Positions 3,153 through 15,881 of a stretch of DNA of 34,542 nt are shown here, piece by piece; position 1 is the first letter of the stretch, and the number at the start of each line of letters is the position of its first letter. This stretch comes from Chloroflexota bacterium. Lineage in GTDB: Bacteria; Chloroflexota; Anaerolineae; Anaerolineales; Villigracilaceae. Below the pieces are notes generated by a model, which made no database searches, had not been told where the DNA came from, and saw only the letters and a program-made list of their open reading frames with translations. Location of the stretch: positions 1-34,542 of the forward strand of contig JAKAKJ010000069.1 in the NCBI GenBank assembly GCA_021824575.1, in the 5' to 3' direction. The position numbers and the translations under genes are program-made.

Positions 3153-3284
3153 TCAATGCCTTCCTAACTTCGATGCAATTTTGAAAATTGTAACATAATG
3201 AAAAGAACGACCTCTTTGCCTGCCCTCAGCTTTTTGTTGACAATGTGCCCGCCTCTTTCCCGGACGTAAAACGGATTCCGTTAT

Positions 3285-3779
3285 CTAAAGCGCCGCCCAT
3301 TTTCGAATCTGATCGTGATGCGCGCGCCACGCCTCCCATGCAGACTTTGCCCATTCTCTCGCGACGCGCTGATATTCTTCGAGTCCTTCCGCGTCCGCCG
3401 CATTGACAATGGTGATTGGTCCCATCGAAGTTGGCGGCTCGAGCCAAAAAAATTGATCACTGAATTGTGCTGCACGACTACGGGTCCTGATCACCTGAGC
3501 CTCCGGCAATCCTTTTTCGAGCAAATAATACAGGGCGATCAAATGCACGGCCACCGACTGGATCGCTTGTCGATTCGGTCGACCGGGATGCTGAACCGTG
3601 TACGCATCCACCGACAAGCGATACACAGTCGGATAGTTATATTCTCCATAATCTCGCGCAAGCAAGACGCCATAAACAGACCAACATCCAGGCGATGACA
3701 ACATATATCTATGTGTTGGCCCGTCCATGTTTGGAACCATCGCGCCGCAACTGAAACAATTGGTTAGATTTGTATCCAT
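3285..3779 (-). CDS. DUF5946 family protein
   Basis: A 164-residue soluble protein. The N terminus has CFSCGA followed by GPTHRYMLSSPGCWSVYG, and then SVDAYTVQHPG; this order (CxxCGA, GPTHxY, SSPGCW, VDAYxVQHPG) is the hallmark I recognise for the DUF5946 family. The cysteines and histidines could bind a metal, but that is inference. No function is known for the family. It lies between the aminopeptidase fusion and the glycosyltransferase, all on the minus strand, with gaps of 132 and 42 bases; co-transcription with the upstream glycosyltransferase gene is possible. The start is ATG with only a weak ribosome binding site. Confidence 0.72.
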   Translation of the reverse strand: MDTNLTNCFSCGAMVPNMDGPTHRYMLSSPGCWSVYGVLLARDYGEYNYPTVYRLSVDAYTVQHPGRPNRQAIQSVAVHLIALYYLLEKGLPEAQVIRTRSRAAQFSDQFFWLEPPTSMGPITIVNAADAEGLEEYQRVAREWAKSAWEAWRAHHDQIRKWAAL

Positions 3780-3821
3780 TGATTATTTGGGCAAGAAATT
3801 CAAATCAAGCATAATAATAAT

Positions 3822-5321
3822 CTACTGAGAACGCACGAACAGAAAGTCGCCTCCGGATTCGCTGGAAACCGTCTTGAAACCAAGGCTCACTATTTGTGCA
3901 CGGACATCCCCAGTTGTGTTGCGTGGAGCAACAACATAGGCAATATCAGGATTCGCATTTACCTTGTCCCTTAATTCATTAATCGTATCCACTGTCACAA
4001 TGACCGGTAATGAATGATCTGGTTTCTCAAACCGCAAGAAATAATAATCTAAGATGATTTTATAACTGGAAGAAAAAATTAAGACTTCCTGCCCAGGCTG
4101 ATATTTGGAGATAATCGTTTGGGCAATTGCTCCCCCAGTCCCCTTTGAGTAATCATAAACCGCCTTGATATACGGCAAAGGGCTGGCGCAGATTACTGCC
4201 AATATTGCAATCATGGAAACATACCTTGTTACAGTTGGTTTAATTAAGACGATGCACTCAACCATAAAAATAGATACGAGAAGCAAAAGCAAAGGTGCTA
4301 AATGAATGATTTGTCTAGCAGAAAAGAAATAATGTTTATAGGTGTCCAGTCCCACAATCAAAGCAAATTGCAGAAAGAATGCAACCAGCAAGCTCAAAAC
4401 CAATTGATATTCTTTGTATTGCTTGATAACGATAAACAATCCGCCAATCATCCCAATCATTAGAATAATATGCCACACGCCAAACGATCCCAAACCCGCA
4501 TCCAGTCGTATTGCCTGTAATCCCAAACCTTCCAATATTACATCCGAGTGAAAGCCTAAATCATAGGAAAAGGTCTGTCCAGAATTGAAAAACAAATATC
4601 CTGGAACATAGCATGCAATCAAGACAATACTACTTACAAGGAACTTCGAGAAATCACCCTTCTTGATTGAAAATTGAAACACGGAGTTTTTATAGGATGT
4701 GTAGATCACCAATATCAAAACAAATCCTGTTATCACAGTGAAGAGCACATACGGGTGAAAATACTCGCCAATAAGCGTTACAGACACATAAAACAGCCAA
4801 TTACGGACGGATGGCTCCTTTATAGCCCGTATCAACAGTAAAGTGGATGCGGCATAAAAAAATACTAGAGAAGCATAAAAACGCATCTCTTGTGAATATT
4901 GAATATAAACTGGTGAAAGAGATAATAATAAAGCAACAAGAAAAGAGGCCGATTTCTTATCGGGAAAATCCAACTCGCGAACCAGACAGAAATATATAAC
5001 GATTGAAAGCGTTCCCCAAACAACCGAAGGAAACCGCATGACTTTTTCATCCAAGCTAATCATTGCCATGAGGCGGGTAACTAAATAGTCGAGTGGCATT
5101 GCCCCTGCGTGCTGGCGCACGATCATCAAAGTATCCATGATGCGAGGCTGGATAGCCGCGAGCGCCTGTCCTGCCTCGTCCAGCCAAAAGCTGTCTTTGC
5201 CAACTTTATAGTATCTCAAGCCAAAGCCAAGAAACACGATTGCCAGCAGAATACAGACTTCCAATGTGTGTAAAAATTTATTGGTGTTATAAAAACCCCG
5301 AGATTCATCGCTCATTGTCAT
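3822..5321 (-). CDS. GT39/ArnT-like polytopic membrane glycosyltransferase
   Basis: A 499-residue protein with about 11-12 hydrophobic segments. The first periplasmic loop after the first membrane segment carries SFWLDEAGQ (Asp48-Glu49), the acidic pair typical of the PMT/ArnT/GT39 fold that uses polyprenyl-phosphate sugars. Such enzymes transfer a sugar from a lipid carrier to proteins or envelope glycans on the outer face of the membrane. A C-terminal soluble domain of about 100 residues follows the last membrane segment. The gene is clearly richer in A+T than its neighbours, with many AAA, ATT and TTA codons, which suggests horizontal acquisition. Two ATG codons (5321 and 5315) could start translation and neither has a strong ribosome binding site. 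Donor and acceptor are unknown. Confidence 0.78.
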   Translation of the reverse strand: MTMSDESRGFYNTNKFLHTLEVCILLAIVFLGFGLRYYKVGKDSFWLDEAGQALAAIQPRIMDTLMIVRQHAGAMPLDYLVTRLMAMISLDEKVMRFPSVVWGTLSIVIYFCLVRELDFPDKKSASFLVALLLSLSPVYIQYSQEMRFYASLVFFYAASTLLLIRAIKEPSVRNWLFYVSVTLIGEYFHPYVLFTVITGFVLILVIYTSYKNSVFQFSIKKGDFSKFLVSSIVLIACYVPGYLFFNSGQTFSYDLGFHSDVILEGLGLQAIRLDAGLGSFGVWHIILMIGMIGGLFIVIKQYKEYQLVLSLLVAFFLQFALIVGLDTYKHYFFSARQIIHLAPLLLLLVSIFMVECIVLIKPTVTRYVSMIAILAVICASPLPYIKAVYDYSKGTGGAIAQTIISKYQPGQEVLIFSSSYKIILDYYFLRFEKPDHSLPVIVTVDTINELRDKVNANPDIAYVVAPRNTTGDVRAQIVSLGFKTVSSESGGDFLFVRSQ

Positions 5322-5421
5322 CTTGTGTTCTACATACCTTTCTCTGGTATGATAATTTCATTGAAAGCGTAATTATATTGCATCCATCCCATATTTCATT
5401 GGAGGATTTAGAACAGCCGCA

Positions 5422-6069
5422 ATGGAAATTAAAACCAACTATGTTGATAATCAAATTTTGATTACCGATAAGCCTGCGGGTATATCCGTCTTGCCCGACG
5501 GCTGGGAAAAAGATTCGCAGTATCTTGTAAAGGTATTGGAAGAAGAATATGGAAAGATATTTATTGTTCATCGTCTGGACAAAACCACATCTGGCGTAAT
5601 GGTCTTCGCTCGGACCGCTGATGCGCATCGTTCTCTCAACATGCAATTCGACAAACATGAAGCACGGAAGATTTATCACGCCATCGCGATTGGCAGTCCA
5701 AAATGGGATGAACACATTGCAAAACATCCGCTGCGAGTTAATGTGGGACACAGGCATCGCACGATGGTAGACGATAAAAACGGGAAACCTTCCGAGACAA
5801 GATTCAAAATCCTTAAACGGTATCCGCATCACGTTTTGCTTGAAGCGGAACTGATGACAGGACGCACGCATCAAATTCGAGTCCATGCGTACGCGTCGGG
5901 GCATCCGCTTTTGGGCGATATCCTTTACAGCGCGCAAGAAACAGACATCATCGCGCGTCCTGCCCTGCATGCATATTCTTTGTCGTTCACGCATCCGCAA
6001 ACAACTGAACGATTGACGTTCACCGCGCCCTACCCCGCTGATTTTGAAAATGCATTATTAAATTTGTAG
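5422..6069 (+). CDS. RluA-family RNA pseudouridine synthase
   Basis: A 215-residue protein. The family isomerises selected uridines in rRNA or tRNA. The catalytic motif is the HRLDKTTSG segment, where the Asp is the nucleophile; ILITDKPAG near the N terminus and the ELMTGRTHQIRVH segment are the other conserved blocks. It lacks an N-terminal S4 domain, which together with the small size is more like RluA/TruC or RluE-sized members than RluC/RluD. The stop codon lies within a 29-bp palindrome (6066-6094). The target site in RNA cannot be inferred. It diverges from the glycosyltransferase gene across a 100-base AT-rich intergenic region. Confidence 0.9.
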   Translation: MEIKTNYVDNQILITDKPAGISVLPDGWEKDSQYLVKVLEEEYGKIFIVHRLDKTTSGVMVFARTADAHRSLNMQFDKHEARKIYHAIAIGSPKWDEHIAKHPLRVNVGHRHRTMVDDKNGKPSETRFKILKRYPHHVLLEAELMTGRTHQIRVHAYASGHPLLGDILYSAQETDIIARPALHAYSLSFTHPQTTERLTFTAPYPADFENALLNL

Positions 6070-6094
6070 GGGCACAGCGGCGCTGTGCCCCTAC
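6066..6094. repeat. 29-bp perfect palindromic repeat, copy 1 (terminator-like)
   Basis: GTAGGGGCACAGC, a 3-base centre, then GCTGTGCCCCTAC. Arm sequences are identical to copy 2 at 7444-7472, on the other side of the DUF1015 gene. The RluA stop codon TAG is inside the left arm. It is placed to act as a bidirectional terminator between the convergent RluA and DUF1015 genes, but no strong T-tract follows. Confidence 0.85.
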
Positions 6095-6097
6095 GGG

Positions 6098-7414
6098 TTA
6101 TGCAATTTTACGGGCTTCCATATAAAATCTTTTTTCGCGCGCCTCGCCCATGGAAAACGTTTTGCGCGGCAAGGCACCATCGAGAATCACTGTCTTGAAC
6201 AGGTCAGACTTGCTCATGCCGGGCAAATAAATTCCAGCGTTGTTTGGCTGGCCGCCAAGGCGCACGACAACATCTTCCCCATGAACGTAATCAATTTTTT
6301 CCGCGCTGCCGTCTTTCATATATTGATCAAGGAAAGGTTGGATCGTGCCGACCGGAAGATTGGATGACGGATGCGCGATCTCAAGCACGCCGAATCCCTT
6401 CCCGGCTACAATCAGACCAATGGCTTGTTTTTCACCATCAGCAGCATCCACACGATTCACCATTTCTTCGGCGTTTGCAACCGAAGTGTATGTGAAATTC
6501 GCGCCAAAGGTTGACTGAAGCGCGGCAAACAAGCTCTTCTTCAATCCAAACAGCACGCGATGAATGGGTTCAAACTCCAAACCTTCATCATGGACGTTTT
6601 CGATTTCGACCAAGGCGTAGCGCGCGGGATGATCCATGCCGACCTGCGGCTTGATCTTTTCCCAAATGGCTTTGGCCGTGGCCAGTGAATGATTACCATC
6701 ACCCATCGCAAAAAGCAAAACAGGTTTATCTTTGCCGATGCCATATTTCGCGGCGAAGGTCTCAGGTTTGGATAAATCACGCAAAGCAGAGACAACTTTG
6801 TTTTCAAAATCTGCATTGACCGCATACCCCGCGAGATGACCGCTATCTAGCATCAAATCAAAATCGTAAAGTTTTTCAAGTTTTGATTTCGCCGCGGACA
6901 ATGGTTCGATGACCATGTGATTCGGGTCGTCAATCAACACCAAAATGTGCGGCAATTCCAGCGCCGCGCCTTCGCGGATTTTCATGCGCGGCGGCAGACG
7001 ATCAATAATTGTTCCCTCCGTTGCGCGAATCAAACTGCTGGAACCTTTGTTGTAATCGTAATGCTCGAGGTCAAGTGCCAACACGATGCCTTTGCGTGTC
7101 TTGCCCGCCACAGTGCGCTCAACATAGATCAAGCCTTCGCGCGGCTGGAGAATGCCGGCATCCAAATATTCCCGCATCGTGGATTGAATGTTTTGAATGC
7201 GCTGCTCTGCGCCCGGTTTCTCCAAATACACTTCGGGGAAAGTTAAGTTCAAAGTCGAAGGCGCATCACCGACGATCTGTTCAACTTGATTCCAATATTC
7301 CGGCTCGGACGTAAATTGATCGCAGGCGATGACCGCCCATTTCTTCAAATCTATGCCGGGTTTGGGAAGATAAATTTGCGGGATTTGAATGCCAATATCG
7401 CTAATGATTTTCAT
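6098..7414 (-). CDS. DUF1015 family protein
   Basis: A protein of about 438 residues starting MKIISDIGIQIPQIYLPKP. The segment FAMGDGNHSLATAKAIWE is the hallmark of the DUF1015 family, whose biochemical role is not established. Conserved stretches also include WAVIACDQFTSEPEYW near the N terminus and PNNAGIYLPGMSKSDLF near the C terminus. I chose ATG at 7414 because AAAGGA lies about 13 bases upstream; a longer frame reaching GTG at 7453 starts inside a palindromic repeat and is unlikely. It sits directly downstream of serA on the same strand (68-base gap), so it may be co-transcribed unless the palindrome at 7444-7472 terminates transcription. The link to serine metabolism is only positional. 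Confidence 0.85.
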   Translation of the reverse strand: MKIISDIGIQIPQIYLPKPGIDLKKWAVIACDQFTSEPEYWNQVEQIVGDAPSTLNLTFPEVYLEKPGAEQRIQNIQSTMREYLDAGILQPREGLIYVERTVAGKTRKGIVLALDLEHYDYNKGSSSLIRATEGTIIDRLPPRMKIREGAALELPHILVLIDDPNHMVIEPLSAAKSKLEKLYDFDLMLDSGHLAGYAVNADFENKVVSALRDLSKPETFAAKYGIGKDKPVLLFAMGDGNHSLATAKAIWEKIKPQVGMDHPARYALVEIENVHDEGLEFEPIHRVLFGLKKSLFAALQSTFGANFTYTSVANAEEMVNRVDAADGEKQAIGLIVAGKGFGVLEIAHPSSNLPVGTIQPFLDQYMKDGSAEKIDYVHGEDVVVRLGGQPNNAGIYLPGMSKSDLFKTVILDGALPRKTFSMGEAREKRFYMEARKIA

Positions 7415-7443
7415 CTGACAAATTTTTCCTTTGATGGAATCGT

Positions 7444-7472
7444 GTAGGGGCACAGCGATGCTGTGCCCCTAC
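7444..7472. repeat. 29-bp perfect palindromic repeat, copy 2
   Basis: Same 13-base arms as the copy at 6066-6094 (GTAGGGGCACAGC / GCTGTGCCCCTAC) with a different 3-base centre (GAT instead of GGC). It lies between serA and the DUF1015 gene, so the DUF1015 gene is bracketed by identical-arm palindromes. A related but distinct palindrome occurs at 18150-18180. Confidence 0.85.
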
Positions 7473-7481
7473 AAATGGTAT

Positions 7482-8393
7482 TTACGCAGGCTGCATCTTC
7501 TTGGCGAATGCAATTAACTTCTCAGCCACTTCCGCGCCGACGCGGCCTTGTGCTTCTTTCGTCGCGGCGCCGATGTGCGGCGAGCCAATGACGTTATCGA
7601 GTTTGAGCAATTTCCAATCGGTTGGCGGTTCCTCGGCGAAGACATCCAGCGCCGCGCCCGCGACCTTGCCGCTGGTCAAGGCGTCATACAACGCGTTCTC
7701 GTCAATGATTCCGCCGCGCGCACAGTTGATGATCCGCACACCATTTTTCATCCTGGCAAATTGATCTTTGCCAATCATGTTCGCGGACTCTTTTGTCTTC
7801 GGCAGATGCAAGCTGATGTAATCGGCCTGTGCCAAAAGTTCATCGAGCGAAACAAGTTTTACGCCAGCAAGTTCTTTCACGTATGGATCATACGCGACCA
7901 CGGTCATGCCCAGTGCAGAGGCGCGCTTGGCAACTTCCTTGCCAATGTTGCCGACGCCAATCAGGCCCAGGGTCTTTCCGCCGATCTCATCGCCTTCGAA
8001 AGCTTTCTTATCCCACTTCTCGGACTTCATCGAAGCGGTGGCTTTGTGCATCGAACGCGCCAGCATGAACATGTAGCCAATCGTCAATTCAGCGACCGAT
8101 GCGGAACTGGCAAGCGGGGTGTTCATCACGGCGATGCCCTTTGACTTGGCGTGTTCGACATCAATCGTGTCAAGGCCCACGCCGCCGCGCACGATCACTT
8201 TCAGATTTGGACAAACGTCAATCAACGGCTGCCGCACTTTGGTCCGGGAACGAACGACCATGCCTTCATAGGCGGGCAACACCTTCATCAAATCTTCCGG
8301 TGTGATGTCGTCGCGCACATCCACAGTCAATCCCGCGGCGCGCATTTGCTCGATGGCTTCTTTTTCGGTCTTATCGCAAACGAGAATTTTCAT
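7482..8393 (-). CDS. serA: D-3-phosphoglycerate dehydrogenase, short form without ACT domain
   Basis: A 303-residue protein. It oxidises 3-phosphoglycerate to 3-phosphohydroxypyruvate with NAD, the first committed step of serine synthesis. Visible motifs: VIVRGGVGLDTID, the Rossmann loop GLIGVGNIGKEVA, the catalytic Arg in NCARGGIIDE, Glu in DVFAEEPP and His in GSPHIGAAT. The protein ends right after the substrate-binding domain, so the C-terminal ACT or ASB regulatory domains of longer SerA proteins are missing and serine feedback through ACT is not expected. The start is ATG at 8393 because AGGAGG lies 6 bases upstream; a start 18 bases earlier is less likely. It is transcribed divergently from serC, the gene for the next enzyme. 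Assigned as SerA rather than another 2-hydroxyacid dehydrogenase mainly by sequence and by serC next door. Confidence 0.9.
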   Translation of the reverse strand: MKILVCDKTEKEAIEQMRAAGLTVDVRDDITPEDLMKVLPAYEGMVVRSRTKVRQPLIDVCPNLKVIVRGGVGLDTIDVEHAKSKGIAVMNTPLASSASVAELTIGYMFMLARSMHKATASMKSEKWDKKAFEGDEIGGKTLGLIGVGNIGKEVAKRASALGMTVVAYDPYVKELAGVKLVSLDELLAQADYISLHLPKTKESANMIGKDQFARMKNGVRIINCARGGIIDENALYDALTSGKVAGAALDVFAEEPPTDWKLLKLDNVIGSPHIGAATKEAQGRVGAEVAEKLIAFAKKMQPA

Positions 8394-8425
8394 TGTGATC
8401 CTCCTGATCAAGTCTGGAAATTAAT

Positions 8426-8462
8426 AACAGGGACCCGCCCGGCGAACCGGCTTGTCCCTGTT
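8426..8462 (-). promoter_or_regulatory. Strong stem-loop in the serA 5' leader
   Basis: AACAGGGAC (8426-8434) pairs with GTCCCTGTT (8454-8462), and the interior holds CCGG-CGAA-CCGG, so the element can form a long stem. It lies in the transcribed leader of serA, about 33 bases upstream of the start codon and downstream of the predicted promoter. It could be an attenuator or mRNA-stability element, or a dispersed palindrome with no role. Confidence 0.55.
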
Positions 8463-8488
8463 TGAAAAGTCGTTCTTTCACGCGAATC

Positions 8489-8517
8489 ATTCTAACAACG
8501 AGAAAATTCTTTGTCAA
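8489..8517 (-). promoter_or_regulatory. Predicted sigma-70-type promoter of serA
   Basis: On the minus strand: TTGACA (8517-8512), 17-base spacer, TAGAAT (8494-8489). The -35 matches consensus fully and the -10 at 5 of 6. Transcription would start near 8483, giving a leader of about 90 bases that contains the stem-loop at 8426-8462. Confidence 0.75.
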
Positions 8518-8552
8518 CGACATACATCAGGCGCAAAATGTGCCGATTGTTC

Positions 8553-8582
8553 TTGGCGATTTGTCTGACAAATCGTTATAAT
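8553..8582 (+). promoter_or_regulatory. Predicted serC promoter with a 19-bp perfect palindrome as candidate operator
   Basis: TTGGCG (8553-8558), an 18-base spacer, then TATAAT (8577-8582). Between the boxes lies CGATTTGTC-T-GACAAATCG (8557-8575), a perfect palindrome with 9-base arms and a single central base. A repressor bound there would block polymerase directly. No regulator gene is adjacent, so the binding protein is unknown. Transcription would start near 8589, leaving a leader of about 60 bases. Confidence 0.72.
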
Positions 8583-8648
8583 GAGTTGAATTGCAAATTC
8601 TCGTCAGCTTTCTGGCGAATCTGAAAACCAAATCAAGGAGTCAATGTC

Positions 8649-9737
8649 ATGTCCGATCCCAAACGCGTATACAACTTCAATCCCGGCCCGGCGGCTCTGC
8701 CCCTGGAAGTACTGCAGCAGGCGCAAGCCGAAATGCTGGACTACAAAGGCACAGGCATGTCGGTGATGGAAATCAGCCATCGTTCAAAAGAATTCGAAGG
8801 CATTATTCAAACCGCCGAAGCGGATCTGCGCGAACTGTACGGCATTCCATCCAATTACAAGATCATGTTCCTGCAAGGCGGCGCGTCGCTGCAATTTGCG
8901 ATGCTGCCCATGAACCTGCGCGCCACCGGTTCCGCCGATTACATCGTGACTGGCACGTGGAGCAAAACCGCCATCAAAGAAGCTTCGAAACTCGGAACGA
9001 CTCACGCCGTGGCGAACACCGAAGCAGATGGATTCAAGAGTCTGCCCGCGAAACTTGATCTCGATCCAAAAGCCGCGTATTTGCACTTCACGTCCAACGA
9101 GACGATTCACGGCGTGGAATATTTCAATGAGCCGACTCCGCTGGCAGGTGTCCCGTTGGTTTGCGATGCGTCGTCGGATTTCATCAGCCGACCGATTGAC
9201 ATTTCCAAATATGCTTTGATCTACGCCGGGGCGCAAAAGAACGCGGGACCTGCGGGCGTGGTCGTCGTGATCGTGCGTGATGACATGCTCGAGCGGACTC
9301 CCGCCAACCTGCCCGTCATGCTCGATTACAAAGCCTTGGCTGCCAGCGGATCATTGCACAATACTCCTCCCTGCTGGTCAATCTATATCACTGGTCTCGT
9401 TTTCAAGTGGGCCAAGGGCCTCGGCGGACTTGCCGCGATTGCCAAGCGCAATCGCACCAAAGCAGATTTGGTTTACAAAGCCATTGACGAGAGCGGCGGC
9501 TTCTATCGTGGACATGCCAACAAAGATGCGCGCTCGGTAATGAACATTCCGTTCAGACTTCCGTCCGAAGAATTGGAAGATACTTTTGCGAAGGAAGCCA
9601 AGAGCAATGACTTGATCGGTCTTAAAGGTCATCGCTCCGTCGGCGGGATGCGCGCTTCACTCTACAACGCGTTGGACGTCAAAGCCGCGGAAGAGCTGAC
9701 CAAGTTCATGCGTGAGTTCCAGAAGAAACACGGATAA
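8649..9737 (+). CDS. serC: Phosphoserine aminotransferase
   Basis: A 362-residue PLP enzyme of the class-V aminotransferase fold that converts 3-phosphohydroxypyruvate and glutamate to phosphoserine and 2-oxoglutarate. The N terminus YNFNPGPAALP, the MSVMEISHRSKEF block, the QGGASLQF block and the PLP lysine in YAGAQKNAGPAG (Lys197) are all diagnostic. AAGGAG lies 8 bases before the ATG. The product completes the second step of serine synthesis begun by the divergently transcribed serA; no serB is visible. The last 147 bases (residues 315-362) recur in diverged form at 11792-11938, on the far side of a 2-kb block, so the 3' end of this gene may have been replaced or regenerated by an insertion. 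Confidence 0.96.
   Translation: MSDPKRVYNFNPGPAALPLEVLQQAQAEMLDYKGTGMSVMEISHRSKEFEGIIQTAEADLRELYGIPSNYKIMFLQGGASLQFAMLPMNLRATGSADYIVTGTWSKTAIKEASKLGTTHAVANTEADGFKSLPAKLDLDPKAAYLHFTSNETIHGVEYFNEPTPLAGVPLVCDASSDFISRPIDISKYALIYAGAQKNAGPAGVVVVIVRDDMLERTPANLPVMLDYKALAASGSLHNTPPCWSIYITGLVFKWAKGLGGLAAIAKRNRTKADLVYKAIDESGGFYRGHANKDARSVMNIPFRLPSEELEDTFAKEAKSNDLIGLKGHRSVGGMRASLYNALDVKAAEELTKFMREFQKKHG
9591..9737 (+). repeat. Direct repeat R1: 3' end of serC
   Basis: 147 bases encoding serC residues 315-362 and the stop. It aligns without gaps to 11792-11938, with 129 of 147 identical bases. Fourteen codons differ; 11 changes are synonymous and three change residues (Leu to Ile, Glu to Ser, Lys to Gln). 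The longest identical run is 35 bases (9624-9658 versus 11825-11859). Confidence 0.9.
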
Positions 9738-9757
9738 TTTCCATTCGCAGATGATTT

Positions 9758-9793
9758 GGCCGTGGAGGTTTGAAACCTCCATGGCCCTTTTTA
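9758..9793 (+). terminator. Rho-independent terminator after serC
   Basis: GGCC-G-TGGAGGTTT, a 1-base loop centre, AAACCTCCA-T-GGCC, then CTTTTTAT. It lies 20 bases past the serC stop. The core GGAGGTTT-G-AAACCTCC is shared with the terminator after the serC fragment at 11975-12010. Confidence 0.85.
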
Positions 9794-9853
9794 TGCAGGT
9801 GGCGAAACTCGCGGGGCATTCCAGAGTCAGTTGCACGCTGCATTGGACAGCTT

Positions 9854-10537
9854 TCAATGCTTTCTCAGTTTAGCAAATCCTTTTTCTAATGTGCCGCCTA
9901 TTACTCCTAAAATGGCAGCAACGATGGGAGTTAATGATAGATGAAAGAAGCATGCTCCCAGGAAATCTTCCATCACAAAAGCATTGAAATCACTCATACC
10001 ACTTCGCGCAAAGTCTTGAAAATTTCCTTCTGCCTTGAAAACCAATTCTTGTTGAGTCGTTCCGCGAAAAAGGTAATACGTAATTAGAACGAATATCAAC
10101 CATATAACAGAACTAAGCATAGCGGCGATTACAGCGGCGGAAACTCCGTTCTTAATGCTTTTATGTCGATGTGCCACCCATACACCAGATAAAAAATATA
10201 AAACGAACACACTGCCAAATTCGATGATTCCCCAGCTCGAATTGTCTTTGGGTAGAAGCGCATATTCAAGCAGTATCTCGCTGGCAAAAATGATTCCAGC
10301 AAATAGCCCGAATATAGTAGCCGGTGTAAGTACCTTGGATTGGATGTGAGGGAAAACGAAAACGCCGATCAATCCATAGGCAATAAGAATAAAACAAGCG
10401 CCGGCAATGCTGAGAAAACTTGTTGCTGGGACAAACAGACGACCCAGAAAAACCAAGATTAACCCAAGCAAAACGCCGATTAGAAAAATGCTCGGGACAA
10501 TATTTGAGATAGTGTTCTTGTTGCCGGAAATCATCAT
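9854..10537 (-). CDS. Polytopic membrane protein of unknown function
   Basis: A 227-residue protein with about six hydrophobic segments (roughly residues 13-33, 40-60, 72-92, 104-121, 132-156, 195-215). I do not recognise the family. A soluble stretch at about 160-195 (KAEGNFQDFARSGMSDF) separates the last two membrane segments. It is the last of three minus-strand genes for small membrane proteins, 41 bases downstream of the DoxX-like gene, so it is probably in an operon with it. Base composition is AT-rich compared with serC. The whole group lies between two copies of the serC 3' end, which suggests it was acquired. The start could be either of the first two Met codons. Confidence 0.6.
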   Translation of the reverse strand: MMISGNKNTISNIVPSIFLIGVLLGLILVFLGRLFVPATSFLSIAGACFILIAYGLIGVFVFPHIQSKVLTPATIFGLFAGIIFASEILLEYALLPKDNSSWGIIEFGSVFVLYFLSGVWVAHRHKSIKNGVSAAVIAAMLSSVIWLIFVLITYYLFRGTTQQELVFKAEGNFQDFARSGMSDFNAFVMEDFLGACFFHLSLTPIVAAILGVIGGTLEKGFAKLRKH

Positions 10538-10578
10538 TACTACCGTGACAATTATTTCTGGTTTGAATACTCAGTAGT

Positions 10579-10965
10579 TCACAAAGAAACAAGCATCCAC
10601 CGTCCATAGGCAACAAGGACAGCAAACGCGAAAAGAACGACACTAACAAAAATCTTGGGGCTTGTGCGGCTTTTGACATGAAAGAAAATTGAAGCCAGCA
10701 GCATGGCAGAGAGAACTGCGGACATTACCGGTGTTATCCACACTGGCGACCCTAAAACGCCGGGCAGAACTAACCCGATTGCCGCAATAAACGTACAGAT
10801 TGAAATAAGACCATGTAAAGGCCGGGAAAACGCGCCCATCTTTTGAATCGCATCTTGCATTGTCGATTGAGATTGGCGAAGACCATGTGTGTAGGAAACA
10901 GAAATCATCTTTATGCATAGGATTATTTGGATAATCCACAATGTTATATTGATGGCTGTATTCAT
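10579..10965 (-). CDS. DoxX-like small four-helix membrane protein
   Basis: A 128-residue protein with four hydrophobic helices. The start INITLWIIQIILCIKMI, a GAFSRPLHGLISICTFIAAIGLVLPG segment and the YGRW motif near the end are the pattern of the DoxX-like/DoxX_2 proteins, a family of poorly defined membrane proteins. The start is ATG at 10965: AGGAGG ends 5 bases upstream, and a GTG two codons earlier overlaps that site. It is preceded by the methyltransferase-like gene (83-base gap) and followed by a membrane protein gene, all on the same strand. The function is not assigned; DoxX-type roles in thiosulfate oxidation should not be presumed. Confidence 0.65.
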   Translation of the reverse strand: MNTAINITLWIIQIILCIKMISVSYTHGLRQSQSTMQDAIQKMGAFSRPLHGLISICTFIAAIGLVLPGVLGSPVWITPVMSAVLSAMLLASIFFHVKSRTSPKIFVSVVLFAFAVLVAYGRWMLVSL

Positions 10966-11048
10966 TATCACCTCCTAGCAAGAACTTATAGGTTTAGTTA
11001 CACGATGGTTCGCGTTAGCCACTTGCCAAGTGCAAGCGCTTGCCTGGA

Positions 11049-11462
11049 CTAGAACCACGTTCTGCTTCGATAAGCAATGTATTCTTCTCCGAACATCCCT
11101 GCCAAAACCTGCTCTTCGCGCCTGAGGCGAGCAACCTGGACCATTATTACTATTGCCCAAATGATGAGCGCCGGCCAACCTTGGAGAGCTAAGACAACGA
11201 AAAGGAAGGCCAGCGTGCCGAAGACATAAATAGGATGTCGGATCTTCGAATACAGACCTTGTGTCACAAGATGGCGCGCTTGCGCTGTGACAGAGAAAGC
11301 ATCTCCCAGTTGCCAGCGGGCCACGAACCACAACACGGCACATACAAGCGAAAGGCAAAGTGCAGTGTAGGACAGCGCATTGTGTAATCCAGCTATGACG
11401 CCAAACCCAAAGAAGGCCAGATAGACCAAATATGAAAATATGTCGATCCATTGAAGCTTCAC
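11049..11462 (-). CDS. Isoprenylcysteine/phospholipid methyltransferase-like membrane protein
   Basis: A 137-residue integral membrane protein. The pair LVTQGLYSKIRHPIYVFGTL and RREEQVLAGMFGEEYIAYRSRTWF is the SAM-binding C-terminal signature of the ICMT/PEMT methyltransferase family (RHPxY...E(E)..L...FGxxYxxY). These enzymes methylate membrane-embedded substrates; bacterial members mostly have unknown substrates. The protein is short, with three to four membrane helices. The start chosen is GTG at 11462, because GGAGG lies 5 bases upstream; a TTG at 11480 opens the frame but overlaps that site. It is the first gene of the three-gene minus-strand block. Confidence 0.75.
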   Translation of the reverse strand: MKLQWIDIFSYLVYLAFFGFGVIAGLHNALSYTALCLSLVCAVLWFVARWQLGDAFSVTAQARHLVTQGLYSKIRHPIYVFGTLAFLFVVLALQGWPALIIWAIVIMVQVARLRREEQVLAGMFGEEYIAYRSRTWF

Positions 11463-11636
11463 GCAACCCTCCAGTGCCAATTATCCTTGCTTGGCAATCC
11501 CTTTACCTATCCCGCCGCCCAACTATGACTCATTTACAGCGATTTTGCTATAAAACTCCTTTTATTTTGCCTATTTCATTATAGGCAACTGGTATCGAAT
11601 AGGCAATAGACTCCGGAACTGAATTTCCGTTTGTCA

Positions 11637-11800
11637 TGCTTCCACGAGAAGATGGCAGGATTGCAAAGGAAGATAGCAAACTTCTAAAGGAATTTCGCGA
11701 AACTGCAAAGGAAGACAGCAATCTTCTAAAGGAAGATCGCGGGATTGCAAAGGAAGACGACGATCTTCTTCGAGAAGATGGCGAAATTGTAAAGGAAGCC
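11637..11800 (+). repeat. 42-bp minisatellite (about four units)
   Basis: Tandem 42-base units at 11651-11692, 11693-11734 and 11735-11776, preceded by a partial unit from 11637 and followed by a partial unit that runs into the serC fragment. Each unit contains AAGGAAGA followed by AGCAA or GACGA and CTTCT, and in one frame encodes 14-residue repeats of the pattern xxxxAKEDxxLLKE. Units have point differences, so the array is not freshly expanded. Confidence 0.8.
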
Positions 11801-11938
11801 AAGAGCAATGATTTGATCGGAATCAAAGGTCATCGCTCCGTCGGCGGGATGCGCGCTTCGTTATACAACGCGTTGGATGTCAAAGCCGCTGAATCTTTGA
11901 CACAGTTCATGCGCGAGTTCCAGAAGAAGCACGGGTAA
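11792..11938 (+). pseudogene. serC': serC 3'-end fragment (direct repeat R2)
   Basis: Encodes 48 residues matching the C terminus of SerC (KEAKSNDLIG... to ...EFQKKHG) with three substitutions, and keeps the same stop position. The rest of serC is absent. The frame is open through the minisatellite back to an ATG at 11636, so a 100-residue chimera (charged 14-residue repeats plus SerC tail) could in principle be translated, but no ribosome binding site is visible and it lacks the PLP-binding part. Most differences from the intact gene are synonymous, so the fragment diverged while it was still part of a functional serC. Confidence 0.82.
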
Positions 11939-11974
11939 AAGATAATCCACAGATTACGCAGATTTACAAATTTA

Positions 11975-12010
11975 GAACTCGGAGGTTTTGAAAACCTCCG
12001 AGTTCTTTTT
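11975..12010 (+). terminator. Rho-independent terminator after the serC fragment
   Basis: GAACTCGGAGGTTTT, a G loop centre, AAAACCTCCGAGTTC, then TTTTTG. The 15-base arms are perfect. It resembles the serC terminator at 9758-9793 in its GGAGGTTT core, which suggests that the duplication includes or borrowed the terminator. Confidence 0.85.
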
Positions 12011-12055
12011 GTAAAAACGTGACCTACAAGTTTGCTTCAGAGATCATTGAATTAT

Positions 12056-13483
12056 TCATGGGGCTTTCCATACGATATAGAAAATCTCATTGCCAGAGGA
12101 ACCACCGGGACCAGCAATCATAACAGTCACCTCATATCGTTCACCAGGCACCAAGAGGCTGAGATCAGAAAGTGTGACATGATCCGAGTCACATGAAACT
12201 GGTTGGGAATATATAAATCCTGTGCTACTATTTCGAGATACAAACACTTTGCATCCACCTCCAACCAAACCTGCTGGCGGTTGCCAACTCACATATAGGC
12301 TGTTTTCATTTTGAACAGCGCTTATATTTGTAGCTGGCGGCACGATAGATTGGGTATAGTTAACCTTTTGAACCAACACAACCTTTCCATTCTTATAATA
12401 AGTAAAAGTGTAAACGCCGCTTTGGGGTAAGCCGCTGTTCGGCGGTCCGTAGAGGACCCAGCGCCGCGTTACTTCTCCAGAGTACTGATTACTATTGAAA
12501 TCCTTCCTTAAGTGGAAAATCATGCCACTGGGTGCCGTTACAGTTACGTCAGTCAGGTTCCAGAGAAAGCAAGTATCGAGGACAGTATAGTCCGCGGTGC
12601 AATTGGTTTTAAATTCATAAGATAGAACCCCACCCGGATCCTCGTTACCCCAAACCTGTGGGTAAGCGAGAGGGACTCCAAAAGTTGAATCGACAATCGT
12701 CCCTGGCTGCTGAGCATCCGCAATACTTCCATCAGTATTCAGCGTCCAAACACGAATATCGTCAACACACACTTGCAAATGCGGTGATGTTGTGAATGCA
12801 GCAGGGCCAGTGCTTCGTTGGATATCGGAACCCATTTTTACAGGAAAATTGTCAATGTAATACTTGATCTCACTACCTGCTACCTCCAATCTTATCAAAT
12901 ACCACACATTACCAGATATCCATTCAAATTGTCGATTTCCAATGCCGATGTATGGTTGCGGACCAAATTGGAGGTCTTCAACCTTACTAACGAAGTTGAG
13001 TGCCGCGTTATAACCGTTGTTCATTGAGTCAACGCGAGCAAACAATGAGAAATATTGTTCGTCATCATGTACTGCAACAGATTTAACTCTAATTTCAACC
13101 GCATAATTATTCCATGTATCAGCACCAAAATTGACATTCAAGAAACCGCCGTCTTCTTGGTTGCACAAAATATGATTCCCCGTATCATCAACTTCCATTT
13201 TCCATTTTGGTATCGCGCTGATTGCGCTCTCTGCTGTATCTGATTCGAAATTCTGCTTGAACAATAAAGCGGAGTCGGGAATAATAGGTCCAGTCGCACG
13301 GCCAGAAGAAAATTCCAATGTTGGAGTGGGTGCCGGGGTTGATGTTGGCCGTGGTGTTTCGGTTGAAACAGGCGTTGGAGTGAATGCGACAAGACTTGGC
13401 TCGCTGGCAGAAATACTCAGCCCAGAATTACTGCAAGATGAAAGCAAAACAGCTATTGTACATAACAAAATGATTCGTTTCAT
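12056..13483 (-). CDS. Secreted lipoprotein with LamG-like and fibronectin-III-like domains
   Basis: A 475-residue protein. The signal peptide MKRIILLCTIAVLLSSC ends in a lipobox (Cys at 17), followed by a Pro/Thr-rich linker (about residues 35-60). Residues 75-250 look like a concanavalin/LamG-type jelly roll (KQNFESD start, WNNYAVEIRVK, WYLIRLEV, YYIDN, and the HLQVCVDDIRVW end), typical of carbohydrate or matrix binding. A middle domain (about 265-370) is unassigned. The last 90 residues (ATNISAVQNENSLYVSWQPP ... PGERYEVTVMIAG) are fibronectin-III-like. It is probably anchored on the outside of the membrane. ATG at 13483 follows AGGAGG by 6 bases. No enzyme motif is seen. It is more AT-rich than recA or serC. 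Confidence 0.72.
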   Translation of the reverse strand: MKRIILLCTIAVLLSSCSNSGLSISASEPSLVAFTPTPVSTETPRPTSTPAPTPTLEFSSGRATGPIIPDSALLFKQNFESDTAESAISAIPKWKMEVDDTGNHILCNQEDGGFLNVNFGADTWNNYAVEIRVKSVAVHDDEQYFSLFARVDSMNNGYNAALNFVSKVEDLQFGPQPYIGIGNRQFEWISGNVWYLIRLEVAGSEIKYYIDNFPVKMGSDIQRSTGPAAFTTSPHLQVCVDDIRVWTLNTDGSIADAQQPGTIVDSTFGVPLAYPQVWGNEDPGGVLSYEFKTNCTADYTVLDTCFLWNLTDVTVTAPSGMIFHLRKDFNSNQYSGEVTRRWVLYGPPNSGLPQSGVYTFTYYKNGKVVLVQKVNYTQSIVPPATNISAVQNENSLYVSWQPPAGLVGGGCKVFVSRNSSTGFIYSQPVSCDSDHVTLSDLSLLVPGERYEVTVMIAGPGGSSGNEIFYIVWKAP

Positions 13484-13509
13484 TGTCAACCTCCTGCCGA
13501 ATAGTTAAG

Positions 13510-13515
13510 ATTATA
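13510..13515 (-). promoter_or_regulatory. -10 box for the LamG-like lipoprotein gene
   Basis: TATAAT on the minus strand, 27 bases upstream of the ATG at 13483. I see no convincing -35 at 16-18 bases, so the call rests on the -10 match and its position. Confidence 0.45.
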
Positions 13516-13568
13516 CGCCAGCATCTCCATTGCAGAAAACCTACAAAACCAACCCGCCACATGTAACT

Positions 13569-13577
13569 TGTTATAAT
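13569..13577 (+). promoter_or_regulatory. Extended -10 promoter, probably giving a leaderless mRNA
   Basis: TGTTATAAT, an extended -10 (TGnTATAAT). The box ends 7 bases before the ATG at 13585, so transcription should begin at or next to the start codon. There is no ribosome binding site between them. Confidence 0.6.
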
Positions 13578-13584
13578 TCCGCCC

Positions 13585-13932
13585 ATGGATTTTTTCTTCC
13601 CCGAAGATAACTTACAACGGGCAACGCCCGCAGAGACGCATATCACCAAATTGACCGCCGAGCCATATCCCGATGGGCAGCGCGTGCGCGTGGACTTGGA
13701 AATCACGCCATTCCAGCAGCGTCCAACCATCGAAGTGAAATTAACCGACGCGAACAACGATGAAGTTGCCACGGCCAGCATCGTCGAGCCGATGATGTGG
13801 AAAATCGAATTCACGATGCACCTGCGCGGCGCGAACGCCAATCCGTTCAAGATCGAAGCAAAATTATTCTATCCCGATGGTCCGCAGGCCGAACCGGTGA
13901 CACATACGTTTGAAGTTCCCGTTGCAAATTAA
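13585..13932 (+). CDS. Small beta-rich protein of unknown function
   Basis: A 115-residue soluble protein starting MDFFFPEDNLQRATP, with no signal peptide and no membrane segment. Alternating polar/hydrophobic strands (RVRVDLEITPF, TIEVKLTD, KIEFTMHLRG, FKIEAKLFYP, HTFEVPV) suggest an Ig-like or beta-sandwich fold. I do not recognise the family. No Shine-Dalgarno precedes the ATG, and the promoter -10 is only 7 bases away, so the message is likely leaderless. It ends 5 bases before the TolB-like gene and may be co-transcribed with it and the M23 gene. Confidence 0.65.
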   Translation: MDFFFPEDNLQRATPAETHITKLTAEPYPDGQRVRVDLEITPFQQRPTIEVKLTDANNDEVATASIVEPMMWKIEFTMHLRGANANPFKIEAKLFYPDGPQAEPVTHTFEVPVAN

Positions 13933-13937
13933 CAAGA

Positions 13938-15881
13938 ATGTTGTCTTCCCATAAATCTTCGGCGGGACTGAAGTCCCTTCTCAGTTCGTGGAAAGCCCGT
14001 AAGGGCTTCCACGTATTGAGGTGGGGACTTTTAGTCCCCGGCCTTTTAATCATCACCATTCTTGCCTTAACGCTAGCGGGCTGCGTAAAACAGACAACCG
14101 ACTCCCCCACTCCATCGCCAACGGTTGAAACGCCCACGCCGACATTATCGCTTATGGACAGCGCAAAGAATAATAATGTAATGATCCTGTCCATCGAAGA
14201 GAATGGGGACGCGCATCTCTTCGCGTATGACCCAGCCAAATCGAAGCTGACGCGTCTCACGTCCGGGAATTGGAGCGACATCACACCCGCGTTGAGTCCC
14301 GATGGAAAGTTCATCGCCTTCGCGTCCAATCGAAGCGGGCACTGGGACATCTACGAACTCATCATCCAGACCGGCGAAGTCAAACAATTAACGAACACGC
14401 CCGAATATGATTCATCGCCTGCATGGTCACCGGACATGGCGTGGATCGCGTACGAAACATACCAAAACGGCAACCTCGATATTGCCATCCTTTCGCTCAA
14501 CGATGCGAGTCAAAAACCGATTCTGTTGACGAGCGGCTCGTCATCGAATCATTCGCCGGTCTGGTCTCCGAACGGACGCGAAATTGCATTCGTGTCCGAC
14601 CGCTCCGGCAATTCGGATATCTGGATCGCGGACTTGAATAAAACCGACAATCGTTTCACCGATTTGACAAACACAACGCAGACCGCGGAAACACATCCGG
14701 CGTGGAGCCCAGATGGAAGCCATCTTGCGTGGGCCGCATCTTCGACGACGAATCTCTCAAACAACGGCATTTATGTTTGGGATGAAAAAAATCCGGACAA
14801 AGCGCCGGTTTGGGTCGGCGATGGAAATTGGCCCGCATGGAATCCGCGCGGCGATGCAATCGTTACATCGGTGGACGAGCCGAATCAGGAAATGCTGACA
14901 GCGTACACATTGCAAGGTCAGCCTTTGCTTTTGCCCACACCTCTGCCCGGACATTTAGATGGTTTGATATGGCCCAGTCTCACCCTGCCAGGTCAGATGC
15001 CGCTCGCATATCAACAAGCCGCGGAGCAAACTCCGCCCGCGCTTTGGGAGCCGCTCATCACGCCGATAACAGGCGTGCCCGCGCAACGTTGGTATGTTGT
15101 TCCGCTCCCAGACGTGCAAGCGCCATATCCCGAATTGCATGATCTCGTCAAGGATTCATTCGAGGCATTGCGCCAGCGCGTTATCCAGGAAACCGGATGG
15201 GACGCACTTGCGAGTCTCCAAAACGCGTACGTGCCGTTGACCACCGCACTCGATCCGGGACTTGGACAGGATTGGCTTTACACTGGACGCGCATTTGCCA
15301 TCAACTCGTTGATGGTCAATGCCGGATGGATGACAGTCGCGCGCGAAGACATTGGCGCGCAAACGTATTGGCGTTTGTATTTGCGCGCGCAGAATCAGGA
15401 TGGCACACAGGGCGCGCCGATTGAAGATCCGCCGTGGGATTTGAATGCCCGCTACGAATTGGACCCGGTAACGTATGAGGCGGGCGGAAAATATTCCTCC
15501 ATCCCAGCCGGATACTGGATTGACTTCACATCGTTGGCCGCCGCGTACGGCTGGGAACGTTTGCCCGCTTTGCCCAATTGGCGAAACTATTATGCGGGCG
15601 CGCGCTTTACTGAATTTGCAAAGACAGACGGCCTCGATTGGAATTCCGCGATGCTGGAGTTGTATCCGCCCGAAGCGCTGTACACCGCGACACCGGTCCT
15701 GCCTCCAACCGGCACGCCGACGAAGACGCCGATTCCGTCCAGCACCCCCGCACCGACGAGAACTCCGTACGCAACCGGCACGCCGACGCTTTCGCCCACG
15801 CCATCCAACACGCCGACCCCGAGCAATACACCATTGCCGACAGACACGCCGCCGACGATTATTCCAACTTTTAACCCGTGA
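13938..15881 (+). CDS. TolB-like (PD40) beta-propeller lipoprotein with unassigned C-terminal domain
   Basis: Up to 647 residues. A hydrophobic segment ending in the lipobox LTLAGC (Cys at 49) makes it an exported lipoprotein, followed by a short PT-rich linker. Residues 75-290 hold at least four PD40/TolB propeller repeats (ALSPDGKFIAFASNRSG, AWSPDMAWIAYET, VWSPNGREIAFVSDRSG, AWSPDGSHLAWA), usually protein- or ligand-binding. Residues 385-600 form a separate domain I cannot name (GLGQDWLYTGRAF, NWRNYYAGARF). The tail is Pro/Thr-rich low complexity. The first 26 codons lie in a palindromic repeat, so translation may instead start at TTG 14016, which gives a compact signal peptide. The M23 gene overlaps its stop by four bases, so the two products are probably co-translated and work together at the surface. 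Confidence 0.78.
   Translation: MLSSHKSSAGLKSLLSSWKARKGFHVLRWGLLVPGLLIITILALTLAGCVKQTTDSPTPSPTVETPTPTLSLMDSAKNNNVMILSIEENGDAHLFAYDPAKSKLTRLTSGNWSDITPALSPDGKFIAFASNRSGHWDIYELIIQTGEVKQLTNTPEYDSSPAWSPDMAWIAYETYQNGNLDIAILSLNDASQKPILLTSGSSSNHSPVWSPNGREIAFVSDRSGNSDIWIADLNKTDNRFTDLTNTTQTAETHPAWSPDGSHLAWAASSTTNLSNNGIYVWDEKNPDKAPVWVGDGNWPAWNPRGDAIVTSVDEPNQEMLTAYTLQGQPLLLPTPLPGHLDGLIWPSLTLPGQMPLAYQQAAEQTPPALWEPLITPITGVPAQRWYVVPLPDVQAPYPELHDLVKDSFEALRQRVIQETGWDALASLQNAYVPLTTALDPGLGQDWLYTGRAFAINSLMVNAGWMTVAREDIGAQTYWRLYLRAQNQDGTQGAPIEDPPWDLNARYELDPVTYEAGGKYSSIPAGYWIDFTSLAAAYGWERLPALPNWRNYYAGARFTEFAKTDGLDWNSAMLELYPPEALYTATPVLPPTGTPTKTPIPSSTPAPTRTPYATGTPTLSPTPSNTPTPSNTPLPTDTPPTIIPTFNP
13964..14039. repeat. 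Tandem of three palindromes overlapping the start of the TolB-like gene
   Basis: Three adjacent stem-loops: GGGACT-GA-AGTCCC (13964-13977), GTGGAAAGCCC with GGGCTTCCAC (13988-14012) and GGGGACT-TTT-AGTCCCC (14023-14039). This has the look of a mobile intergenic palindrome cluster. It is read as coding sequence if the gene starts at 13938. Confidence 0.8.

Follow-up and report, generated by a model that had tools for sequence, protein, structure and literature searches.

Displaced gene ends and repeated gain of small gene blocks downstream of serC in Anaerolineales

The repeated serC end

How did the serC gene of a Chloroflexota chromosome come to be followed by a block of opposite-strand genes and then by a second copy of its own 3' end? 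In the present study, we analysed a stretch of 34,542 nt of contig JAKAKJ010000069.1 (the window), whose features are listed in Table 1. The functional end (t1) and the distal copy (t2) were identical at 129 of 147 positions, without gaps and with the same TAA; BLAST extended the pair to 152 nt (E 2.9e-44). Fourteen codons were changed, 11 of them silently, and three ORFs lay between the copies. The initial annotation had read this as an insertion that apparently brought a new serC end and displaced the old one, with both copies diverging under selection, and our results agreed on each point. The insert apparently restored the end of its target gene, leaving serC intact, and the distal copy looked native. 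As that annotation had noted from the letters, no integrase was visible; no tyrosine recombinase was found on the window's contig.

Table 1. Features of the serC locus in the window
Feature	Position	Strand	Remarks
serC, phosphoserine aminotransferase (class V aminotransferase)	8649..9737	+	intact; Pfam Aminotran_5, E 2.3e-41
t1, functional serC 3' end	9591..9737	+	137/147 identical to G002, 127/147 to G003
Terminator-like hairpin after t1	9758..9786	+	consensus scan
Cargo gene 1, 227-aa protein without assigned family	9854..10537	-	weak ECF-transporter Pfam match, sub-cutoff
Cargo gene 2, DoxX-like membrane protein (DoxX_2)	10579..10971	-	PF13564, E 9.3e-08
Cargo gene 3, PEMT/ICMT-type methyltransferase	11049..11480	-	PF04191, E 6.9e-12
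Putative 100-aa fusion ORF, minisatellite in frame with serC end	11636..11938	+	no Pfam match
21-nt minisatellite	about 11639..11790	+	direct repeats, spacing 21/42
t2, orphan serC 3' end	11792..11938	+	sequence comparison; post-stop TAAAAGAT
Terminator-like hairpin after t2	11974..12006	+	consensus scan
477-aa gene within variable region	12056..13489	-	weak sub-cutoff fn3 match; possibly an older insertion
c2, first conserved gene right of hotspot	13585..13932	+	position by similarity; no Pfam match
c0, PD40 repeat protein, conserved right flank	13938..15881	+	

The GC content from serC to c2 was 0.45 vs 0.51 for the window. The AAAGGAAG that recurs in the minisatellite, read directly from the sequence, was similar to serC at the joint and possibly represents a microhomology joint with serC. 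The frame at 10975-11466, which overlaps cargo gene 3, gave no Pfam match. Four terminator-like sites were found vs 3.0 expected by shuffling, which is weak as functional evidence.

A genome-wide tendency to duplicate gene ends was not seen in the screened part of this genome, 381,557 bp (the window, 20 sampled stretches and L195) with 309 ORFs of 150 aa or longer. By our reading, serC was the only one of these ORFs followed by an orphan 3'-end fragment. The remaining pairs were paralogues, internal repeats, short matches or a 5'-end copy (L262); at L248, a pair of repeat-domain ORFs had common ends, but both were long genes.

The serC hotspot in related genomes

We compared 79 serC loci from 78 genomes, the window included. 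In 17 of them c2 began no more than 200 nt after the serC stop (empty sites), and in 19, again with the window, variable genes, mostly on the opposite strand, occupied the 0.6-10 kb between serC and c2 (filled sites); the other 43 were uninformative, c2 being not found or the order rearranged. The empty site expected by the initial annotation thus exists in relatives. Its right neighbour is c2, not the gene at 12 kb originally named, because that gene sits inside the same variable region. Flanking long direct repeats and an empty site, as target duplication requires, were both present at serC.

Cargo lay mostly on one strand in 18 of the 19 filled loci, and 16 of the 19 had no orphan end. A search with one 31-aa query at E 0.01, which divergent short ends could escape, revealed additional serC 3' ends in five of 152 family genomes, four of these in the window's genus. 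This count leaves out G112:C304, which begins within serC at the edge of its contig, and discounts short or low-identity matches in G010, G012, G022, G062, G111, G128, G132b, G155, G161 and G172. A direct comparison of arrangements was provided by G005, with the order serC-c15-c16-c17-c2, and G003, with serC-TA-orphan end-c15-c16-c17-c2: the module of G003 lies nearest serC, and the old 3' end was left downstream. A BglII-like nuclease was found at the serC of G002, a locus without an orphan end; restriction-modification cargo was not found in the window. These results indicated that the 3' end of serC is a hotspot where small blocks of foreign genes have repeatedly been gained.

A repeated 3' end as a general property of bacterial serC was not supported. 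None of 75 loci with at least 500 nt downstream, taken from the best 80 and with titles mostly outside Chloroflexota (L316, L360 and L382 within), repeated the 3' end, and one 32-bp internal match was seen (L380).

The orphan ends at serC had a common 3' side and different start points, with lengths from 147 to 36 nt measured to the end of the stop codon. The 35-bp run identical in the two copies of the window (9624-9658 and 11825-11859), earlier proposed as a crossover core, proved to be a conserved serC stretch: it matched at 35/35 positions in G002, 34/35 in G005 and 33/35 in G003, all genus relatives, and at 27-32/35 in six more distant relatives. Six other aligned orphan ends began inside or after this run, none of them containing it whole. 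By eye, 23 nt of serC-like sequence were also recognised at the end of contig C63, again with a start inside the run. A fixed-site integrase is unlikely, because orphan starts differ and the whole run occurs only in the window's orphan copy.

The sequence after the stop codon bore on which end is native. The t1 copy is followed by TAATTTCC, unlike the TAAAAGAT of G002 and G005. Besides the serC of these two genomes, TAAAAGAT followed t2 of the window's genome (G000) and of G003 and the orphan end of G004; it was absent after t1 of G000 and G003 and after the orphan ends of G001 and C63. Since its post-stop sequence matches that of relatives without a duplicated end, t2 looks like the displaced native serC end, and t1 would have arrived with the insertion. 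The similarity to relatives changed across the hotspot. Along serC, the informative sites switched close to nt 494 of the gene, which lies about 450 nt before the repeat (permutation p 0.0015). The serC gene appears mosaic, with a G002-like 3' half; this signal comes from one gene and three sequences, and the recombinant could be G003.

Displaced gene ends at herA and selection on the copies

The same pattern of displaced gene ends was observed at a gene for a HerA-like ATPase (herA). Here the gene was followed by toxin-antitoxin or restriction-modification genes, behind which lay truncated copies of the herA 3' end, in some cases as stacks, with lengths of about 32 to 141 nt and one near 240. 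Genomes with more than one HerA-end match belonged to seven genera; the figure of 20 of 43 herA loci is a biased rate, since L296-L315 were chosen for extra fragments and L266-L295 as best matches. Stacking was evident in one array: the junction of a HerA end with a MazE/PIN module lay at the gene itself in L297, L304 and L315, and at an orphan end in L296, which has a BrnT gene upstream, so that the newest module lies nearest herA and old 3' ends lie downstream. Methylase and DpnI-family genes were among the herA-module ORFs, of which 90 of 99 listed were scanned (nine antisense ORFs of L307 were dropped); PF00589 was not among the Pfam families of these 90.

An import tract was not found in L304, where the closest sequence throughout the last 660 nt was that of the genus relative L305, whose cargo is different. 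For the MazE/PIN module, recent transfer between genera was not shown, the modules being 75-83% identical between loci and the herA genes 75-88%. Several full/orphan pairs of herA had private residues in common, as read from the alignments, which fits within-lineage duplication or import from very close relatives.

We then considered selection on the copies. The pN/pS between full and orphan ends was 0.152, pooled over 22 alignments (3 serC, 19 herA), local alignments being biased toward conserved stretches and those under 30 nt being skipped. L306 and L309 were outside these counts, and L311, whose supposed full gene is only a 102-aa frame, was dropped; with L311 the value was 0.164 over 23. 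Between functional copies, pN/pS was 0.272 for herA (17 pairs) and 0.098 for serC (3 pairs). Simulated duplication in place with a neutral orphan gave 0.566-0.693 across four settings, with minima of 0.375-0.499 in 300 runs per setting. In 229 loci (1.88 Mb), a set enriched for serC and herA loci, 3'-end copies lay downstream of the gene in 19 cases vs none upstream, and 5'-end copies were divided into six downstream vs five upstream.

Proposed mechanism, alternatives and known systems

We consider it reasonably probable that the modules arise by homologous import of a relative's gene end together with cargo, the far side being joined illegitimately, and that this is serially repeated. Incoming DNA would bring a relative's serC 3' end, its terminator and cargo; the incoming end would pair with the resident serC, and since the homologous crossover would fall inside the gene, serC would stay intact. 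Illegitimate joining would connect the far side to a point inside the resident serC end or in the spacer before c2, and a joint inside the resident gene would leave the old end and terminator downstream as a 5'-truncated orphan. Repeated rounds would stack modules with the newest nearest the gene, and a module between two gene ends could additionally be passed on through ordinary homologous recombination. At herA the same process would act, and much of the cargo there consists of addiction modules (toxin-antitoxin and, once, restriction-modification). Transformation or other uptake of linear DNA would be the entry route, and addiction may be the reason that cargo is kept. ComEC is present; this is no proof of competence, because E. 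coli and nine others of 14 control genomes have it as well. In its textbook form, homology-facilitated illegitimate recombination tends to remove recipient DNA, not to duplicate it; this counts against our reading, as do the 16 of 19 filled serC sites without an orphan end, the orphan ends of G001 and C63 without TAAAAGAT and the failure to find an import tract in L304.

Tentatively, a gene-end copy plus an addiction module may form a self-contained mobile unit without a recombinase in Anaerolineales. The copied 3' end would then serve as homology arm, as protection of the gene at arrival and as terminator carrier, and would label the old end as it moves further down an array that grows; several loci of this kind would exist, serC and herA among them.

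The alternatives were weighed against the same data. Insertion with a long target duplication in place, both ends being recipient-derived and diverging later, seems unlikely to us: the cargo does lie between long direct repeats and includes toxin-antitoxin genes and, more rarely, restriction-modification genes, private residues are common to several herA pairs and L304 has no import tract, but the pooled pN/pS lies far under the 0.57-0.69 simulated for a decaying orphan, and the window's serC copies differ in sequence type and post-stop context. We find it improbable that a tyrosine recombinase acted in trans, integrating site-specifically into the gene 3' end from an attP with a replacement end, as in e14 or phage 21. 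Such an enzyme would suit the apparently supplied replacement end, the prevailing cargo strand at 18 of 19 filled serC loci, a junction at ATGCGYGCTT common to G003 and C63 and the eight PF00589 matches elsewhere in the genome. Against it, junctions vary widely and the whole 35-bp run is confined to the window's orphan copy; no PF00589 match lies on C14 or C63, no integrase was found on the window's contig and PF00589 is not among the Pfam families of the 90 herA-module ORFs; and the phenomenon recurs at an unrelated gene. A phage-borne serC end was likewise not found, one degenerate serC-end pattern giving 0 matches in viral_contigs; in a phage collection, a serC-like end occurred in 10 records at 51-60% identity, four annotated as aminotransferase and six unannotated. 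The phage-like site-specific element initially suggested is thus not borne out, given variable junctions, no fixed core and no integrase on the contig.

That the modules are integron cassettes, with gene ends serving the integron integrase as secondary sites, is very improbable. Of the 152 family genomes, 84, among them the present one, have TIGR02249 integrases above the cutoff, attC-like repeats lie between serC and c2 in G130, and attC-like half-sites, read by eye, flank a transposase gene beside the serC-like stretch of C63. The attC scan, whose sensitivity is low (of the six repeat copies in G130 it detected one), found 0 sites in 18 of 19 filled serC regions and in the contigs of G001, G004 and C63, G130 being the exception at serC. 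An assembly or binning artefact is hardly credible: most genomes are draft assemblies and the 3.2-kb contig C63, whose serC end resembles that of G005, is possibly misbinned, but the window has its full and orphan ends on one contig, with a divergence of about 12%, and more than one HerA-end match was seen in genomes from seven genera.

Import of a relative's gene end with cargo touches the long-standing question of how toxin-antitoxin and restriction-modification genes without a recombinase travel between chromosomes. Stacked gene ends beside core genes would log the order of arrival and perhaps each donor lineage, and the route would therefore be testable directly by sequence. An intact gene with orphan 3' ends behind it would also be a simple search signal for acquired defence or addiction modules.

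Several known systems invite comparison. In icd, the replacement 3' end of e14 or phage 21 reportedly restores the target gene, as here; unlike that case, no integrase was found on the window's contig, and there is no fixed core, the cargo is small and modules stack serially. As in integron cassette arrays, small modules are stacked at a single place, with one orientation prevailing at serC; unlike in such arrays, no attC was found in the window region and gene ends lie between modules. Insertion with long (and variable) target duplication was reportedly described by Nobusato in 2000 and Furuta in 2010 for restriction-modification genes. That system places addiction-type cargo between long direct target repeats, as here. 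Such insertion of restriction-modification genes is mentioned in PMC3031569 and referenced in PMC3874152. Here, by contrast, the repeats are gene 3' ends, found at two genes, modules stack, the serC copies look like different lineages and toxin-antitoxin genes are common herA cargo. Serial displacement in T6SS/Rhs loci is also similar: a conserved stretch anchors new modules, which shift old 3' ends and partner genes downstream, arrays are built serially, no integrase is known, and homology-facilitated illegitimate recombination plus plain homologous transfer has been proposed. A T6SS/Rhs module replaces an effector gene or its variable end plus the immunity partner, whereas here it is a housekeeping gene that has its end displaced, with hardly any change in its protein, and the cargo is unrelated to the gene.

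Orphan gene ends at serC

A genuine insertion hotspot, at which gene ends have been displaced, lies at the 3' end of serC. In the window (contig C14 of draft genome G000, 3.64 Mb), we confirmed the observation of the initial annotation that the last 147 bp of serC recur downstream without gaps and with the same TAA (129/147 identical; 14 codons changed, 11 of them silent), with three genes on the opposite strand between the copies. A terminator-like hairpin was found 3' of both copies; such sites were hardly commoner than chance. The initial annotation had also proposed phage-like integration with a 35-bp identical run as a candidate crossover core. The run was present, but no crossover is needed to account for its identity, because the same stretch was identical or near-identical in the serC genes of G002 (35/35), G005 (34/35) and G003 (33/35); six more distant relatives matched at 27-32/35. 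Repeats similar to the 21-nt minisatellite of the window were observed in contigs of G154, G172 and G175.

Extra serC ends were sought in 152 family genomes with one 31-aa query and in six genus genomes with one pattern search. They were found in 5/152 family genomes (G000, G001, G003, G004 and G032), with one in the window and one in the 3.2-kb contig C63 of G000, and two in G001. A search downstream of serC in 75 outgroup loci gave no additional 3' end. All orphan ends retained the 3' side, and their lengths, counted up to and including the stop codon, varied; the 67-nt copy of G001 had CAA at the stop position. The far end of C63 entered a 23-nt serC-like stretch. Since the C63 copy resembled serC of G005 (89% and 92% over its two last segments), this contig may belong to a different strain or have been binned wrongly.

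Features at serC, herA and integron integrase loci
Feature	Sequence	Position or strand	Length or description
serC	window	8649-9737	ordinary class V aminotransferase gene
serC 3' end (t1)	window	9591-9737 (+)	
Orphan serC end (t2)	window	11792-11938 (+)	147 nt
Cargo between t1 and t2	window	opposite strand	unassigned 227-aa protein; DoxX-like protein; PEMT/ICMT-type methyltransferase
21-nt minisatellite	window	11636-11938	coordinates of its in-frame fusion with the serC end
Orphan serC end	C63		~90 nt
Orphan serC end	G003		84 nt
Orphan serC end	G032		81 nt
Orphan serC ends	G001		67 and 36 nt
Orphan serC end	G004		47 nt
DDE transposase gene	C63 (L034)	1-1760	514 aa; between attC-like half-sites, beside serC-like stretch at contig end
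attC-like repeats	G130 (L135)	1721-8638	six, in the serC-c2 interval; apparent cassette array
Direct repeat	G170 (L218)	1434-1452, 2126-2144	19 bp; around DUF433/DUF5615-like module beside cytochrome P450 gene
Integron integrase gene end	G011 (L181)	1321-1356, 1697-1732	36 bp; recurs 340 nt downstream
Repeats	G124 (L198)	5871-15237	several, ~190-330 bp, 87-97% identical; region fetched for integron integrase
Integron integrase matches	G000:C71	56168-59640	two pieces ~2.5 kb apart

Gene order around serC was mapped at 79 loci of 78 genomes, the window included. Where it was kept, the order of the genes to the right was serC-c2-c0-c5-c6, with c5 and c0 swapped in some. The start of c2 lay <200 nt from the serC stop at 17 loci (nine genera) and at 0.6-10 kb at 19; at the remaining 43, c2 was not found or the order was rearranged. 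The filled stretches differed in gene content, with a BglII-like nuclease in that of G002, and the opposite strand predominated in 18/19, the exception being G018. A clean pair was formed by G005 (serC-c15-c16-c17-c2) versus G003 (serC, toxin-antitoxin genes, orphan serC end, c15-c16-c17-c2). The empty site predicted in the initial annotation, serC followed by gene 12056-13489, differed from the observed one because this gene lies within the variable region itself.

The sequence TAAAAGAT was found at the stop of the distal copies of G000 and G003, of the G004 orphan, and of serC in G002 and G005, where the end is not duplicated. The functional serC ends of G000 and G003 had another stop context, and TAAAAGAT was also absent from the G001 and C63 orphan ends. 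Because TAAAAGAT is common to the distal copies and the unduplicated genes, the native end of G000 and G003 would seem to be the distal copy, now displaced, with the functional end as the new arrival. The t1 copy was identical to G002 at 137/147 positions and to G003 at 127/147; for t2 the values were 133/147 and 134/147. Near nt 494 of serC, the informative sites changed to favour G002 (permutation p 0.0015). To the right of the hotspot, c0, c5 and c6 of G000 were 91-97% identical to those of G003 versus 69-85% for G002; serC and its two left neighbours were about equally close to both. The recombinant could be G003 rather than G000, and whichever genome recombined, the hotspot divides regions of different history.

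Orphan ends of herA and their cargo

C63 carried a toxin-antitoxin module (DUF433 + DUF5615); in G003 and G001 its DNA was 90-91% identical, and some match to it was found in 24/152 family genomes. In G163, G034, G162 and G125, a module of this kind, or one next to it, adjoined repeated copies of the 3' end of a HerA-like ATPase gene (DUF87/HerA by Pfam in the two stretches scanned, L219 and L221). A 44-aa HerA end query matched 118/152 genomes, 22 of which, in seven genera, had at least two matches, the second not always being an orphan end. Of 43 distinct herA loci in a selected set, 20 had one or more copies of the end downstream; copies measured ~32 to 141 nt, and one (L309) ~240. A Pfam scan of 90 ORFs on both strands, whose counts give no rate, revealed PIN, Phd/YefM, MazE, CopG-type, BrnT, HepT, nucleotidyltransferase and DUF433/DUF5615 families in the herA modules, with a cytosine methylase and DpnI once each. 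PADLOC returned type II methyltransferases and nucleases among the first 25 of 65 families.

A MazE-antitoxin and PIN-toxin module of ~715 bp was common to L297, L304, L315 and L296, starting ~5-13 nt past a HerA stop, with its end lying ~4-45 nt short of a HerA end copy. In the first three this stop was the gene's own (the herA 5' side being lost at the contig end in L297 and L315); in L296 it was that of an orphan end, which was separated from full herA by a gene for a BrnT toxin and a partner gene that had no Pfam match. Since the same junction occurs at herA itself in the other three, the sequences indicate that it was displaced downstream intact in L296. The gene after the last HerA end copy in L296 (h21) was the direct herA neighbour in L292. 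As separate observations, L311 (G168:C12) had two HerA-end copies ~85% alike, neither joined to a full-length gene in that stretch, and a short inserted palindrome (CCTGTCCCGC..GCGGGG type) that may be mobile lay inside or beside HerA end copies or post-stop stretches in L297 (in frame), L300, L307 and L315.

Origin of the displaced ends

Pooled pN/pS between full and orphan ends was 0.152 in 22 alignments (3 serC, 0.167; 19 herA, 0.149), a value that local alignments bias downward, with 126.3 synonymous differences over 333.3 sites and 79.7 nonsynonymous over 1385.7. Functional copies gave 0.272 for herA (17 pairs) and 0.098 for serC (3 pairs). Simulated in-place duplication with a neutral orphan yielded means of 0.566-0.693 and minima of 0.375-0.499 under four settings (300 runs each); thus most of the divergence probably dates from a time when the two copies served as functional gene ends in separate genomes. 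As several herA pairs share private residues between full and orphan end, imported ends must often have come from close relatives. Among 229 loci (1.88 Mb), a set in which serC and herA are overrepresented, 3'-end copies were 19 downstream and 0 upstream (2 serC, 16 herA, 1 integron integrase), and 5'-end copies 6 and 5. The integrase gene of L181 may be a third case of an orphaned gene end. Matches to the integron integrase model TIGR02249 exceeded its cutoff in 84/152 family genomes.

DNA imported by homologous recombination with its anchor in the gene, and joined on its far side at varying points within the resident end, would account for the intact gene, newcomer end, truncated native end and variable starts, as well as the serial order and the absence of an integrase. 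By direct reading, minisatellite AAAGGAAG meets serC GAAGGAAG in the window, plausibly a microhomology joint. ComEC was present, which is no proof of competence. Addiction would presumably keep such cargo in place; the window cargo was not addiction-type.

Relation to known systems

None of the open-licence papers listed in literature searches described arrays of gene ends at serC or herA, and the interest lies more in the recurrence at herA with toxin-antitoxin cargo than in the window alone. For restriction-modification genes, PMC3031569 states that target duplications are long and of variable extent, and PMC3874152 cites such duplication. In V. cholerae T6SS loci, according to PMC5361080, serial displacement moves the 3' ends of old effectors, and immunity genes, backward, and homology-facilitated illegitimate recombination was proposed. 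The hotspot described here is best read as a form of serial displacement by recombination, in a new variant.
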